Below, piece by piece: positions 28,609 through 35,819 of a stretch of 64,000 nucleotides of DNA (the stretch's first letter is position 1; the number at the start of each line of letters is the position of its first letter). Origin of the DNA: Pedobacter sp. SL55 (GTDB lineage Bacteria; Bacteroidota; Bacteroidia; Sphingobacteriales; Sphingobacteriaceae); the NCBI RefSeq assembly GCF_026625705.1, contig NZ_CP113059.1, positions 2,604,001 to 2,668,000 on the forward strand. Reading direction: 5' to 3'. Under the pieces are notes generated by a model. The model did not search any database. It was given only the letters and a program-made list of their open reading frames with translations, and was not told where the DNA came from. A program made the position numbers and the translations under genes.

Positions 28609-28691
28609 CGTCAATTTCGACGAAGTATGAGGAGAAATCTTCAAATTAAATGCTGCTGTCAACAAGATTTCTCTCTACGTTCGAAATGACG
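28609..28691. repeat. Dispersed palindrome, GAGAAATCTT/AAGATTTCTC family
   Basis: GAGGAGAAATCTT (28629-28641) is inverted as AAGATTTCTCTC (28664-28675), with outer arms CGTCAATTTCGA and TCGAAATGACGG. This resembles a repeat type common in Bacteroidetes intergenic DNA. Confidence 0.7.
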
Positions 28692-30638: not shown

Positions 30639-30663
30639 TATATTTGTCTACTAGTTCTATAGA
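30639..30663 (+). promoter_or_regulatory. TonB-receptor promoter with overlapping candidate operator
   Basis: TATATTTG at 30639-30646 is an exact -7 element. Directly after it, TCTACTAGTTCTATAGA (30647-30663) covers the expected transcription start. The same 17-base frame, TCTACTA-N2-T-N3-TAGA, occurs at the cobA promoter (34965-34981), where it is closer to a perfect palindrome. A repressor site shared by the two genes is inferred; an Rrf2-type regulator is one possibility, not shown by the sequence. Confidence 0.55.
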
Positions 30664-30691
30664 TTTAATATAATTTAAACTTTTGATGTTG

Positions 30692-30719
30692 AAACCGTCC
30701 TGATGCATAGGGGTGGTTT
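30692..30719 (+). promoter_or_regulatory. Leader hairpin 1 of the TonB-receptor transcript
   Basis: AAACCGTCC pairs with GGGTGGTTT (nine pairs including two G-U) around a ten-base loop, about 40 bases after the predicted transcription start and upstream of the small Cys-codon ORF. Confidence 0.5.
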
Positions 30720-30746
30720 GGTCATCATTTAAAACAAATCCAAAAG

Positions 30747-30833
30747 ATGAAAAAGATCCTAAATCCCATGTGTTGCTGTATGTCGAATAATTCTCTTAAT
30801 GTTCTCAAAATACCCATACAGCAAGCACTTTAA
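30747..30833 (+). CDS. 28-codon leader ORF with three consecutive Cys codons
   Basis: ATG opens a frame coding MKKILNPMCCCMSNNS, then 12 more residues to a TAA at 30831-30833. The codons TGT TGC TGT at positions 9-11 are consecutive cysteines. The stop lies 15 bases before the ATG of the TonB receptor, so the two would be translated in close succession. The Cys codons form the 5' arm of a strong hairpin (30770-30828). The arrangement fits a cysteine-responsive leader peptide, where ribosome stalling at Cys codons keeps the hairpin open. This is inference; I know of Cys-rich leader ORFs before other genes, including a TonB receptor in Bordetella, but not of this one. Confidence 0.55.
   Translation: MKKILNPMCCCMSNNSLNVLKIPIQQAL
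30770..30828 (+). promoter_or_regulatory. Attenuator-like hairpin spanning the Cys codons
   Basis: TTGCTGTATG (30773-30782) pairs perfectly with CATACAGCAA (30815-30824). GTG (30770-30772) extends the stem by pairing with CAC (30826-30828) past a one-base bulge. The loop is 32 bases. The 5' arm contains the triple Cys codons, and the 3' arm ends three bases before the leader ORF stop and about 20 bases before the receptor start. Confidence 0.6.
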
Positions 30834-30848
30834 TAGCCAATTACAACA

Positions 30849-33464
30849 ATGAAAATTAAACTATACCCACTTAGAAAAAACTTTTACCTCACTATCTTAA
30901 CCATTTTATCACTAATCCTTTCTGCTGCATCTGCTCATGCTCAAACTCCTTTTAGTGGAGTAGTCAAAAAAGGGGATGGTTCTCCAGTTCCTCACGCTAC
31001 TGTTAAAATAAGAGGCACAAATATTTCTACCAGTGCAAACGAAAAAGGCGAATTTCGCTTAACCTCGGTTCCAGAGGTCCCATTTTACATTCAAGTAAGT
31101 TCCGTAGGTTTTAAACCGCAAGATTTTCAAATTTTAACCATCACGTCCACACCAATAGAACTGGTTTTGCTAGAAGCTTCTCAGCTAGATCAGATTGTGG
31201 TGACCTCGCGTCGCCGTTCGGAAGTTTTACAAGAAGTTCCTATTCCAATTACAGTTATCGGCGGACAGGCCGCTGAAAATGCAGGTGCTTTCAACGTTAA
31301 TCGCTTAAAAGAATTGGTGCCCTCGGTCCAATTGTATGCTTCCAATGCAAGAAATACTACATTAAATATACGTGGTTTAGGCTCTACTTTTGGTTTAACT
31401 AACGATGGTATCGATCCTGGCGTTGGTTTTTATGTAGATGGTGTGTACCATGCTCGTCCAGCAGCAACTTCAACAGATTTCATAGATATCGATCAAATTG
31501 AGGTAATTCGCGGACCACAAGGCACTTTGTTTGGTAAAAATACCACCGCAGGCGCATTTAACATTACTACCAGAAAACCGAGTCATGTTGCAAGTGCAAA
31601 AGTTGAACTAAGTTTTGGTAACTATAATTTCATTCAGGCTAAAACTACGGCTACAGGTAGTGTGGCAAAAAATCTGGCAGCAAAAATCTCCATTTCTGGT
31701 ACGCAGCGTGATGGCACCATCTGGAACGTACGTGAAGAACGAAAATATAGCGGGCAAAATAACTTAGGTGCTAAAGGGCAATTGTTGTTTACGCCAAACG
31801 AAAAATTGGAACTGTTATTAAGCGGCGATGTTAGTATTCAGCATCCAGCAGGCTATCCGTTGGTGGTTGCTGGCGTTACTACCACAGAAAGAAGCGCTTT
31901 CCGTCAGTATGCTAAAATAGTTGAAGATTTAGGGTACACACAGCCAATAGTTGACCCTTTTGCTAGAGAAATTTATACCAATACACCTTGGAGACACAAC
32001 CAATCTATTGGAGGGATATCCTTAAATGCCGACTATAAAATTGGTAGCGGTAAACTTACTTCAACCACCGCTTGGAGATTTTGGAACTGGGATCCAACCA
32101 ATGATCGGGATTTTACCGAGTTTGCTGCATTGACTAAGTCGCAGGGCAATACTCGTCACGACCAATATTCGCAAGAGTTTAGGTACGCAGGAGATCTCAC
32201 CGATAAATTAAGTGGCGTGGTGGGTGTTTTCTTTCTTGGGCAGAATTTACAAGGCTTAGGGCAAACCGAAGAAGTAGGAAGAGACCAATGGCGTTTTGTG
32301 CAAACTAGTGCTACGGGCGAGCAAGCTTTATATAGTGCCAATCGGGATTTATTAACAGGTTACGGTATTACTACAAATTCTACCATTAAGTCGTTAAGTG
32401 CGGCTGTTTTTGCGCAGGTAGACTGGGAGGTGCTTGATAAATTACACGTATTGCCTGGCATCAGGTTTACTTACGATAAAAAAGAAGTAGATTACGATAG
32501 AAGAACTTACGGCGGCTTACAAACTTCGGATGCTGCTTTATTAAGACTTAAAAATGCAGTTTACTCGAACCAGCAATTTAATACCAGTACTAATAACAAT
32601 AACCTGTCTGGAAACTTAACTGTTTCTTACCGCCCAAGCGATAAACTGAACGCATTTGCTACTTATTCTACCGCCTATAAGCCAGTTGGTGTTAATGTAG
32701 GCGGTTTACCAACTACATCAACTGGTGCAGCCGATTTATCTGTAGCTATAGTAAAACCAGAGTATGTACAACATTATGAACTGGGTTTAAAAACAAAGCC
32801 AACTGCGGGTGCAATTTTGAACATTACTGCATTTAATACCGACATTAAAGATTACCAAACTAATGTGCAATCGCCACAATTGGGGGTAAATAGAGGGTAT
32901 TTAGCAAATGCAGAAAAAGTACGCGTCAAAGGTTTAGAGGTTGATGGTAGTTATCAATTGCAGCGGTTTTTAACCTTAAATGCTGCAGTAGCTTATCTGG
33001 AAGGCAAATATGTTAAATTTACAAATGCGCCACTGCCACTAGAAGAAACCGGGAGAACCGAAGTAATCAATGGTGTAGCTACACAGGTTGCATTTAAAGA
33101 TGTTTCTGGAGGTAGATTGCCTGGTATTTCTAAATGGAATATTTCTGGTGGAGCAGAGTTAAGCACAGCAGGTAAGCTAGCCGAAAGAGAAGGTAGGTAT
33201 TTTATTGCTAGCGATATAAGTTATCGCTCGGAGTACTCTTCAAATCCAACGCCGTCAAGAGTTTTAGTGATAAATGGCTATACTTTGTTAAACGCCAGAC
33301 TTGGTTTTAGATCAGAAAAATTCTCGATTTTTGCTTGGAGCAGAAACCTCGGTGGAACTAATTATTTCGAACAATTGCAGGCTGCAGCAGGCAATGCTGG
33401 TTTGTATGCTGGCGTATTGGGAGATCCACGAACTTATGGTGCTACTTTAAGATTTAGTTTCTAA
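30849..33464 (+). CDS. TonB-dependent outer-membrane receptor with carboxypeptidase-regulatory-like domain
   Basis: An 871-residue active-transport receptor. A signal peptide (FYLTILTILSLILSAASAHAQ) is followed by a CarboxypepD-reg-like beta-sandwich at about 33-115 (FSGVVKKGDGSPVPHATVKIRG). The plug domain is at about 120-235 (QIVVTSRRRSEVLQEVPIPIT, LVPSVQLYASNARNTTLNIRG, IDQIEVIRGPQGTLFGKNTTAG), and a 22-strand barrel ends in GATLRFSF. No SusD-like partner follows, so the ligand is unlikely to be a large glycan. The Cys-codon leader and the operator shared with cobA suggest a sulfur-containing or sulfur-regulated ligand, which is inferred. A terminator ends the unit. Confidence 0.93.
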   Translation: MKIKLYPLRKNFYLTILTILSLILSAASAHAQTPFSGVVKKGDGSPVPHATVKIRGTNISTSANEKGEFRLTSVPEVPFYIQVSSVGFKPQDFQILTITSTPIELVLLEASQLDQIVVTSRRRSEVLQEVPIPITVIGGQAAENAGAFNVNRLKELVPSVQLYASNARNTTLNIRGLGSTFGLTNDGIDPGVGFYVDGVYHARPAATSTDFIDIDQIEVIRGPQGTLFGKNTTAGAFNITTRKPSHVASAKVELSFGNYNFIQAKTTATGSVAKNLAAKISISGTQRDGTIWNVREERKYSGQNNLGAKGQLLFTPNEKLELLLSGDVSIQHPAGYPLVVAGVTTTERSAFRQYAKIVEDLGYTQPIVDPFAREIYTNTPWRHNQSIGGISLNADYKIGSGKLTSTTAWRFWNWDPTNDRDFTEFAALTKSQGNTRHDQYSQEFRYAGDLTDKLSGVVGVFFLGQNLQGLGQTEEVGRDQWRFVQTSATGEQALYSANRDLLTGYGITTNSTIKSLSAAVFAQVDWEVLDKLHVLPGIRFTYDKKEVDYDRRTYGGLQTSDAALLRLKNAVYSNQQFNTSTNNNNLSGNLTVSYRPSDKLNAFATYSTAYKPVGVNVGGLPTTSTGAADLSVAIVKPEYVQHYELGLKTKPTAGAILNITAFNTDIKDYQTNVQSPQLGVNRGYLANAEKVRVKGLEVDGSYQLQRFLTLNAAVAYLEGKYVKFTNAPLPLEETGRTEVINGVATQVAFKDVSGGRLPGISKWNISGGAELSTAGKLAEREGRYFIASDISYRSEYSSNPTPSRVLVINGYTLLNARLGFRSEKFSIFAWSRNLGGTNYFEQLQAAAGNAGLYAGVLGDPRTYGATLRFSF

Positions 33465-34681: not shown

Positions 34682-34964
34682 GTTTTACGGTTTCTTTAGA
34701 AGTTGAATGTTAGTTCTAGAACTAATCTCGAATTTAAACAATATCTATTTCCGAAAACAGTAGCACTTGTCGCAGCAAAATAGCCCTGAACGAAGTGGAA
34801 AGCCCGCATCCAAAGCTTGGCTTGGGGAGGACTTGTAACGAAGTGCAGGACTTTAGGTACCGATGAAATACTGGAAATTGCGCTCCAAATAATTTGTTTA
34901 AGTCACTGAAATTTTAAAATTATTTATCTCATTATCAATTTATTATGTTTTATTTAAAATATAT

Positions 34965-34981
34965 TCTACTAAATAGGTAGA
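34965..34981 (+). promoter_or_regulatory. Candidate operator at the cobA promoter
   Basis: TCTACTAAATAGGTAGA, extended to TTCTAC-N7-GTAGAA, is a good palindrome eight bases upstream of the -7 element and so inside the promoter. It shares its fixed positions and 17-base length with the site at 30647-30663. Confidence 0.55.
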
Positions 34982-34988
34982 AATTATA

Positions 34989-35021: not shown

Positions 35022-35819
35022 ATGATTTTAGAAAAAGTAGACAGAAACGTAGTTGAGCCTAAAATAACTTTAGTGGGTGCGGGTCCTGGAGATCCGGATT
35101 TATTAACCTTAAAAGGGGTTAAAGCGTTAGCAACTGCCAATGTAGTTTTGTATGATGCTTTGGTAAACGAAGCATTGCTAAACCATGCACCAGAAAATGC
35201 CATCAAAGTTTATGTGGGCAAACGTTCTGATGATGAGTCATTCTCTCAAAAATTAGTCAACAAGTTAATGATCGATTATGCTTTAAACTACGGTCATGTA
35301 GTGAGATTGAAAAGTGGAGATCCGTTCGTGTTTGCTCGCGGTTACGAAGAAGTTAATGTTGCAGAATCTTACAACATTCCAACCGAAATTGTACCGGGCG
35401 TTTCTAGTGCGCTAGGCGTACCAGGACTGCAAAAAATCCCGATGGTTTATGGCAATATGAGCGAAAGTTTTTGGGTGGTAACGGGAACCAATGCTCAAGG
35501 ACAAATTTCTCCAGATTTGTATGTGGCTGCAAAATCTAACGCTACCATTGTGGTGTTAATGGGTATCGAAAAAATTAAAGAAATTGCTTCCATCTTTAAA
35601 GCAGAAGGAAAAGCAAATTTACCTGTGGCGGTAATAGAAAACGGTTCGTCGAAAGAAGAAAACGTGGTGGTAGGTATAGTAGATACGATTGAAGAATTAA
35701 TTGAAGAAAAGAAATTAAGTTCGCCAGCTTTATTGGTGTTTGGAAATGTGGTTTCATTACATCCGCAATTTAACTCCATCCATCAATTTTATGCGATAAT
35801 GGCACAAGAAGAATATTAA
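35022..35819 (+). CDS. cobA: Uroporphyrinogen-III C-methyltransferase
   Basis: SAM-dependent enzyme (265 aa) that methylates uroporphyrinogen III twice to precorrin-2, the branch to siroheme and cobalamin. Tetrapyrrole-methylase motifs are in order: ITLVGAGPGDPDLLTLKGVKAL (residues 15-36), VLYDALVN, VRLKSGDPFVFARGYEE, EIVPGVSSALGVPGL, and PVAVIENGSSKEE. It is a stand-alone SUMT without the CysG oxidase/chelatase part. Siroheme serves assimilatory sulfite reductase, so a sulfur-assimilation role is likely. Its promoter carries the palindrome shared with the TonB receptor. A terminator follows. Confidence 0.94.
   Translation: MILEKVDRNVVEPKITLVGAGPGDPDLLTLKGVKALATANVVLYDALVNEALLNHAPENAIKVYVGKRSDDESFSQKLVNKLMIDYALNYGHVVRLKSGDPFVFARGYEEVNVAESYNIPTEIVPGVSSALGVPGLQKIPMVYGNMSESFWVVTGTNAQGQISPDLYVAAKSNATIVVLMGIEKIKEIASIFKAEGKANLPVAVIENGSSKEENVVVGIVDTIEELIEEKKLSSPALLVFGNVVSLHPQFNSIHQFYAIMAQEEY

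Follow-up and report, generated by a model that had tools for sequence, protein, structure and literature searches.

A conserved cysteine-codon leader reading frame upstream of a TonB-dependent receptor of Pedobacter, a probable cysteine sensor

Attenuators of the trp and his type combine a leader peptide that carries a run of codons for the end product with an antiterminator and an intrinsic terminator, and translation attenuators of the erm and cat type depend on a ribosome stalled in a leader open reading frame (ORF), which opens a hairpin close to where the following gene begins. In mycobacteria, short ORFs that encode polycysteine are reportedly leaderless, to go by the title of the 2020 article by Canestrari et al. 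(doi 10.1111/mmi.14498). Two papers that cite this work describe mycobacterial poly-cysteine upstream ORFs (uORFs) that answer to cysteine (PMC9094748, PMC13236596), by translation attenuation of cysteine biosynthetic genes (PMC13236596). In Bordetella pertussis, CruR is encoded before bfrG and is described as a copper-responsive DUF2946 protein in which 45 residues separate a CXXC from a RAPP motif (PMC9426467). Here we analyze a stretch of 64,000 nucleotides (nt) from Pedobacter sp. SL55 (contig NZ_CP113059.1, positions 2,604,001 to 2,668,000; hereafter the window, numbered from its first letter), in which a short uORF with three consecutive cysteine (Cys) codons precedes the gene of a TonB-dependent receptor. 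A first-pass annotation of the letters alone had proposed that ribosome occupancy of these codons decides whether a hairpin forms. It had also pointed to Cys-rich leader ORFs known in other phyla, of which the mycobacterial ones are examples (PMC9094748, PMC13236596). A literature search for cysteine leaders returned none in Bacteroidota among the matches listed, with subscription journals mostly outside its coverage.

The leader and its receptor gene comprise the following features.

30639 to 30646, + strand: TATATTTG, a match to TAnnTTTG and putative promoter
30647 to 30663, + strand: operator-like dyad TCTACTAGTTCTATAGA at the presumed transcription start, shared with sulfite-reductase leaders
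30692 to 30719, + strand: upstream hairpin, a lineage-specific insert seen by inspection in three of the ten leaders of the clade (the window, L033 and L040; L numbers denote loci)
30747 to 30833, + strand: poly-Cys uORF of 28 amino acids, MKKILNPMCCCMSNNSLNVLKIPIQQAL plus stop
30771 to 30779, + strand: Cys codons TGT TGC TGT, invariant in all 10 aligned members of the clade
30773 to 30782, + strand: 5' arm of the Cys-codon hairpin, TTGCTGTATG, the exact reverse complement of CATACAGCAA
30815 to 30824, + strand: 3' arm of the Cys-codon hairpin, CATACAGCAA, 24 nt from the receptor ATG
30849 to 33464, + strand: TonB-dependent receptor of 871 amino acids with CarbopepD_reg_2, Plug and beta-barrel domains

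The 28-codon ORF and its three Cys codons lie where the first-pass annotation had placed them, and the receptor ATG at 30849 follows the uORF stop at a distance of 15 nt. The perfect pairing that it had described between the Cys-codon block and the end of the ORF was confirmed, and the hairpin reported farther upstream is present; because it occurs in only three of ten leaders of the clade, the latter is regarded as an accessory insert. The segment from the uORF start to the receptor start folds with −15.0 kcal/mol (z-score −2.0; 7 of 200 shuffles equal it), and the folding of the entire leader is ordinary (z-score −1.2; 24 of 200 shuffles as good).

We consider it likely that the uORF is a cysteine-sensing leader peptide, in which a ribosome slowed at the Cys codons by scarce charged tRNA-Cys would raise expression of the receptor. 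Three properties of the sequences support such a sensor role, namely a Cys run conserved beyond chance, an operator-like motif shared by the receptor and sulfite-reductase operons, and the attenuator anatomy of the sulfite-reductase leaders described below. We infer translation of the uORF, stalling of the ribosome, the direction of the response and tRNA-Cys charging as the sensed quantity; the manner in which a stalled ribosome would act on the receptor is the least certain element.

Conservation was assessed in 81 receptor loci, the window and the best 80 of 452 confirmed stretches, which come from related species and do not represent independent events; the closest receptor among these 80 belongs to Pedobacter ureilyticus (91% identity). 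A strong Cys uORF was defined as an ATG-initiated uORF of 8 to 45 amino acids with at least three Cys in five residues, located at most 350 nt upstream; receptor starts were assigned by script, and a few contigs provide less than 350 nt of upstream sequence. Such a uORF precedes the receptor in 54 of the 81 loci. The dinucleotide-shuffle control of the same regions (20 rounds) gave a mean of 0.2 and a maximum of 1, the reverse-strand control gave 0, and of 347 further genes in these loci 6 scored, one of them being the PhyH leader described below. By these counts, the strong Cys uORF before the receptor is not a product of chance.

Three otherwise unlike kinds of peptide keep the Cys run: group A, with peptides like that of the window (...MCCC...KIPIQ...), group B, exemplified by MRTNQKSRFYCCCCHAKTVIEYFRTGR in L043, and group C, exemplified by MKTDLHFIKMKRKTAKEGTLFLVDCTCCC in L079, which carries the run at its end. 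On a receptor tree built with a quick method, the leader classes (A, 10; B, 26; C, 22; none, 23) follow the receptor clades and require 12 changes; group A occupies one side of a branch, and the class without a Cys uORF requires 11 changes. These counts shift by two or three incidental loci between analyses (B 28 and none 21 in the terminator count, B 25 in the pairing test), and an eleventh leader of group A type, in L256, was left out of them. In the alignment of the ten group A members, the entropy is 0 at the MCCC columns and 0.10 bits at the 18 columns ending in CATACAGCAA, and the 27 columns after the Cys codons are variable (mean 0.92 bits). Ahead of the 3' arm, the coding part of the alignment is interrupted only by gaps of 21 or 12 columns, both multiples of three.

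Because the number of Cys residues and the position of the run vary among the peptides while a near-consecutive run stays, counting of codons appears more plausible than a metal site. This bears on the possibility that copper or another metal is sensed by a nascent peptide rich in Cys, for which the Cys-containing uORF of the CruR-BfrG pair, also located before a TonB receptor, offers a precedent (PMC9426467). Inspection of the window peptide revealed only 28 amino acids, without a RAPP arrest motif or a CXXC 45 residues away, and the receptor has sulfur genes as neighbors in four of five distant relatives (see below); metal sensing is thus very improbable. Copper sensing in the manner of CruR was rejected on peptide anatomy and gene context, and no evidence was found for copper or Cys damage as the signal, two options raised by the first-pass annotation.

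The consensus TAnnTTTG is that of the −7 promoter element of Bacteroidetes. The operator-like motif next to it in the window, searched as CTACTANNTCTATA with at most two mismatches, was found upstream of the receptor in 58 of 81 loci and upstream of sulfite reductase in 34 of 59; one mononucleotide shuffle left a single match in each set. Among the leaders that bear the motif, TAnnTTTG lies at most 16 nt upstream of it in all 10 of group A and in 24 of 25 of group B, as well as in 10 of 15 that have no uORF and in 0 of 8 of group C. Genome-wide, TCTACTANNTNNNTAGANNT with one mismatch gave 19 matches compared with 11 for the reversed control, so that only the sites of the receptor and of a methylase gene are trusted; behind a third perfect match (L113) there is no sulfur gene. 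The methylase site and gene lie downstream of the receptor.

34964 to 34982, + strand: second operator-like dyad, TTCTACTAAATAGGTAGAA, before the methylase gene
35022 to 35819, + strand: tetrapyrrole methylase (PF00590), probably a uroporphyrinogen-III C-methyltransferase of the siroheme branch, which is needed for sulfite reductase

The substrate of the receptor is not given by homology, since its relatives of known structure, siderophore receptors and other TonB receptors, are of low similarity and no NCBIfam family scores above its cut-off. The gene neighborhood points to sulfur. Of the five loci with receptors of at most 66% identity, L107, L110, L111 and L112 (63-65%) place the receptor among sulfur genes. 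In L110 it is preceded by genes for an Rrf2-family regulator, a sulfite reductase and a tetrapyrrole methylase, and followed by genes for a peroxiredoxin, a CysG N-terminal domain protein, an aldo/keto reductase, two members of the PAPS-reductase family that resemble CysH and CysD, and a CysN-like GTPase. The receptor of L107 comes after a reductase fragment and a methylase, and CysE-like and CysK-like genes lie further downstream; in L111 and L112, one gene separates the receptor from sulfite reductase (CysH, CysD, CysN, CysE and CysK were named by reading, together with Pfam families where scanned). A methylase is found near the receptor in 8 of 10 group A loci, and that of the window groups by sequence with the receptor-adjacent methylases of L107 and L110 and with the methylase of the cys cluster of L111. 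Based on the motif and on the neighbors in four of five distant relatives, the receptor looks like a member of a sulfur or cysteine regulon. The Rrf2 gene of the window's genome exceeds the cut-off of the Rrf2 superfamily and reaches 78 bits with the CymR model, below that model's cut-off of 195, so that the term CymR-like denotes resemblance only; its product may bind the operator-like motif.

The same genome contains a sulfite-reductase gene (G000:C1:3598929-3601016, in L191, G000:C1:3590001-3609000, reverse strand), which encodes NIR_SIR domains and a HEPN domain; no NCBIfam equivalog lies above its cut-off, and the gene is named by its operon. Upstream are an Rrf2 gene, a Cys-Cys leader, MKSIIIYFLMPQSTMNHCCKTR (ending ...NHCCKTR), and a strong intrinsic terminator with the hairpin GAATGCTTCTC-CAACAA-GAGAGGCATTTTTT. 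Sulfite-reductase matches came from 57 of the 60 genus genomes and from 38 of the 149 genomes searched in the class, and the set analyzed comprises 59 loci, the best 30 of the genus search and 29 more of the class search. A Cys uORF with at least two Cys in five residues precedes the gene in 26 of 31 loci inside the genus (shuffle mean 2.8) and 15 of 28 outside (5.1), and one with at least three in 16 of 31 (0.1) and 12 of 28 (0.5). The last 12 loci span nine families, including the window's own.

A hairpin of −8 kcal/mol or lower followed by a U-tract lies within the last 260 nt in all 41 sulfite-reductase loci with a Cys uORF and in 4 of 18 without. At the level of sequence, there is good support for cysteine attenuation in Bacteroidota. 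Among the 41, L230 probably has its uORF by chance and a hairpin that is unrelated, and was left out of later counts. Pairing of the strand past the last Cys codon with the 5' arm of the terminator gave negative z-scores in 40 of 40 loci (mean −1.45). In the 36 loci with 40-80 nt between Cys codons and terminator, pairing of that arm with the segment 3-30 nt past the final Cys codon has a mean of −8.4 kcal/mol, compared with −1.9 for an upstream segment; outside the genus, own segments pair better than swapped ones (−11.0 versus −8.5, n=10). Judged from these sequences, the leaders display the anatomy of an attenuator, with a Cys leader, an antiterminator-like strand and an intrinsic terminator. 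Rfam contains no family that matches the receptor or the sulfite-reductase leaders. In L216, the sulfite-reductase leader has no Cys run yet retains the terminator.

In the sulfite-reductase operon, a ribosome delayed at the Cys codons when cysteine is short would leave strand 2 free to form the antiterminator, and the operon would be on; otherwise, a ribosome at the stop codon would cover strand 2, the terminator would form and the operon would be off. For the receptor, scarce charged tRNA-Cys would likewise slow the ribosome on the consecutive Cys codons, and its position there would lead to more receptor, an uptake protein of the sulfur regulon that would be made when cysteine is short. A translational switch is favored for the window's clade, in which the stalled ribosome would hold the Cys hairpin open and prevent other ribosomes from reaching the stop codon of the uORF, 15 nt upstream of the receptor gene. 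The distance from stop to start is 14-15 nt in group A (20 in L039) and mostly 31-38 nt in group B. With so short a spacing, ribosomes that complete the uORF would crowd the start of the receptor gene, an effect not expected of a stalled ribosome. The hairpin of group A may add to this crowding.

The contribution of the hairpin can be judged from its conservation. In group A, the inner seven base pairs form in 70 of 70 cells of the alignment (68 unchanged, two with G-U), and over ten pairs 90 of 100 cells are paired, with one cell altered on both sides. Against shuffled downstream sequence, the Cys block of all 10 group A leaders pairs about 24-28 nt before the ATG, above all 16 shuffles in four of them, and in group B the pairing falls at a comparable position (28-32 nt before the ATG) in 8 of 25 leaders. 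The stem of group A is thus kept yet hardly tested by variation. Next to no conserved fold was obtained with RNAalifold for group B or C leaders. In group C leaders (for example L103:5660-5962), a small GGATG-loop-CATCC element with a stretch like GGCTTTGCTTTGC behind it recurs in the interval from the Cys uORF to the receptor.

Several observations weigh against a cysteine sensor of this kind, and in particular against the hairpin. Covariation in the group A stem is not significant (54 of 500 shuffles reach its score), only one of 25 group B leaders (L048) and none of 22 in group C pair the Cys block above all their own shuffles, and the 3' arm stops 24 nt short of the ATG, so that the receptor start region itself is apparently not masked. 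The Cys codons are accordingly more widely kept than the hairpin, which is not supported as a general switch. The uORF-to-receptor distance in group C, mostly 125-215 nt, misfits a simple picture of crowding. In the sulfite-reductase leaders the antiterminator pairing is weak per locus (shuffle fraction at most 0.05 in 9 of 40), and inside the genus own segments have no advantage over swapped ones (−7.39 versus −7.30, n=26), the sequences being near-copies. Among the receptor loci, the fifth distant relative, L108, has no sulfur gene, nor do most Pedobacter loci among the neighbors examined. Finally, 27 of 81 receptor loci are without a strong Cys uORF and 15 of the 23 classed as uORF-less retain the operator-like motif (at most two mismatches), which indicates that the uORF is dispensable. 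The comparison of receptor orthologs thus bore out one half of what the first-pass annotation had anticipated, the conservation of the Cys run, and not the other, since compensatory change in the stem is limited to one cell. Its proposal of a ribosome sensor at the Cys codons is likewise retained, given the conserved uORF and Cys run, the signs of a sulfur regulon and the Cys leader with terminator before sulfite reductase in the same genome, without the hairpin as a general switch.

The motif in those 15 loci is what would be expected if the operator-like site alone regulated the receptor and the uORF were a relic or had another role, such as encoding a short peptide of its own. Retention of the Cys run across diverging peptides argues against this, as does group C, which keeps the run and has the motif behind TAnnTTTG within 350 nt in 0 of 22 leaders, and we regard regulation by the operator alone as unlikely.

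An intrinsic terminator (−8 kcal/mol or lower) is found in 0 of 10 receptor leaders of group A, 1 of 28 of group B and 1 of 22 of group C, another point against a cysteine sensor. Its absence in the window's clade is compatible with Rho-dependent termination, the main alternative to the translational switch. With cysteine plentiful, the uORF would be finished and Rho would load on C-rich RNA and halt transcription before or early in the receptor gene, and a stalled ribosome would shield the RNA. The last 70 nt before the ATG have a C fraction of 0.21-0.22 and a G fraction of 0.08-0.10 in leaders with a uORF, versus 0.14 and 0.10 in those without, and for the CruR uORF, likewise located before a TonB receptor, the published model has a stalled ribosome that blocks Rho (PMC9426467). 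However, the 15 nt from uORF stop to receptor start in group A leave little naked RNA, and an excess of C over G is equally expected from an A/C-rich initiation region. Rho-dependent attenuation is therefore a possible but rather doubtful explanation, and the translational switch is retained as the favored form of the cysteine sensor in this clade.

Cys leaders of this kind were also found before a gene of the PhyH dioxygenase family, where the peptide ends in six Cys codons in L089 (3903-4019) and seven in L285. Both lie behind TGTCTACTAAATT..., an operator-like sequence of the same kind, although in two loci only; PhyH was confirmed by Pfam for the L089 protein. Incidental Cys ORFs are common. 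A 12-base Cys pattern occurs at 66 places in the window's genome, all inspected except one inside the window, and frames of 12-70 codons with four consecutive Cys are mostly located inside longer frames, usually antisense. Four are free-standing (L134, L171, L173 and L185), and those of L134 and L185 precede a long frame; in L185 (G000:C1:4298800-4301800, minus strand) the small ORF MLWCCISFIGISKAKDCICHYCCCCFSKNKLRKY lies 27 nt before a frame of 342 amino acids. Five Cys codons followed by TGA were found at 14 places in 10 of the 60 genomes of the genus, two of which fit a leader, L280 (before a group C receptor) and L285 (PhyH); the others are inside longer frames, without ATG or without a gene behind. 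Within the window, a uORF with three Cys, MRRNLQIKCCCQQDFSLRSK (28627-28689), lies 114 nt before a guaB-like gene and is probably due to chance, because no other gene of that cluster scores in the strong Cys uORF test. In L111 (5225-5396, minus strand), an S-adenosylmethionine (SAM) riboswitch (RF00162) is followed by the small ORF MKKRMCCCCYEK and then by a dehydrogenase-like gene, an arrangement that may represent two successive sulfur sensors.

Taken together, the balance of the evidence tilts slightly toward a two-layer cysteine-starvation regulon in Bacteroidota, with an Rrf2/CymR-like repressor at the promoters and poly-Cys leaders that read tRNA-Cys. The leaders would have different outputs, an intrinsic terminator for sulfite reductase and a terminator-less translational or Rho switch for the TonB receptor. 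In that case the receptor would import a sulfur compound, and the PhyH-family gene would be a third target. If correct, this would add a new phylum to cysteine attenuation, explain the coupling of sulfate reduction to cysteine supply in Bacteroidota and suggest, for a TonB receptor that is so far an orphan, a role in sulfur uptake that can be tested. It would also provide a natural comparison within one cell, the same codon sensor being coupled to a terminator in one operon and to a different device in another.

A comparison with the described systems reveals similarities and differences. Like trp and his attenuators, the sulfite-reductase leaders combine a run of end-product codons with an antiterminator-like strand and an intrinsic terminator; the end product here is cysteine and the phylum Bacteroidota, and the receptor leader differs in having no terminator (0 of 10 in the window's clade). 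As in erm and cat, a stalled ribosome in the leader ORF could open a hairpin near the receptor start, although here the start region itself appears to lie outside the hairpin (3' arm 30815-30824, ATG 30849). CruR shares the arrangement of a Cys-bearing uORF directly upstream of a TonB receptor, and its control is post-transcriptional (PMC9426467). By contrast, the peptide of the window, as read, contains neither of the two CruR motifs.

The general kind is known from the mycobacterial polycysteine uORFs, which also have several Cys codons in a short ORF of the 5' leader and a proposed response to cysteine (PMC9094748, PMC13236596); the window has three such codons in a row. The system described here differs in its phylum, in the intrinsic terminators of the sulfite-reductase leaders and in having an outer-membrane TonB receptor as one of its targets. 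Moreover, the window uORF is not leaderless, since its ATG at 30747 lies about 100 nt behind TATATTTG, from which the transcript presumably starts. A downstream gene in cysteine or sulfur metabolism, as in mycobacteria, is found in the sulfite-reductase operon of the same genome, and for the receptor such a role is suggested by four of five neighborhoods and the shared motif.

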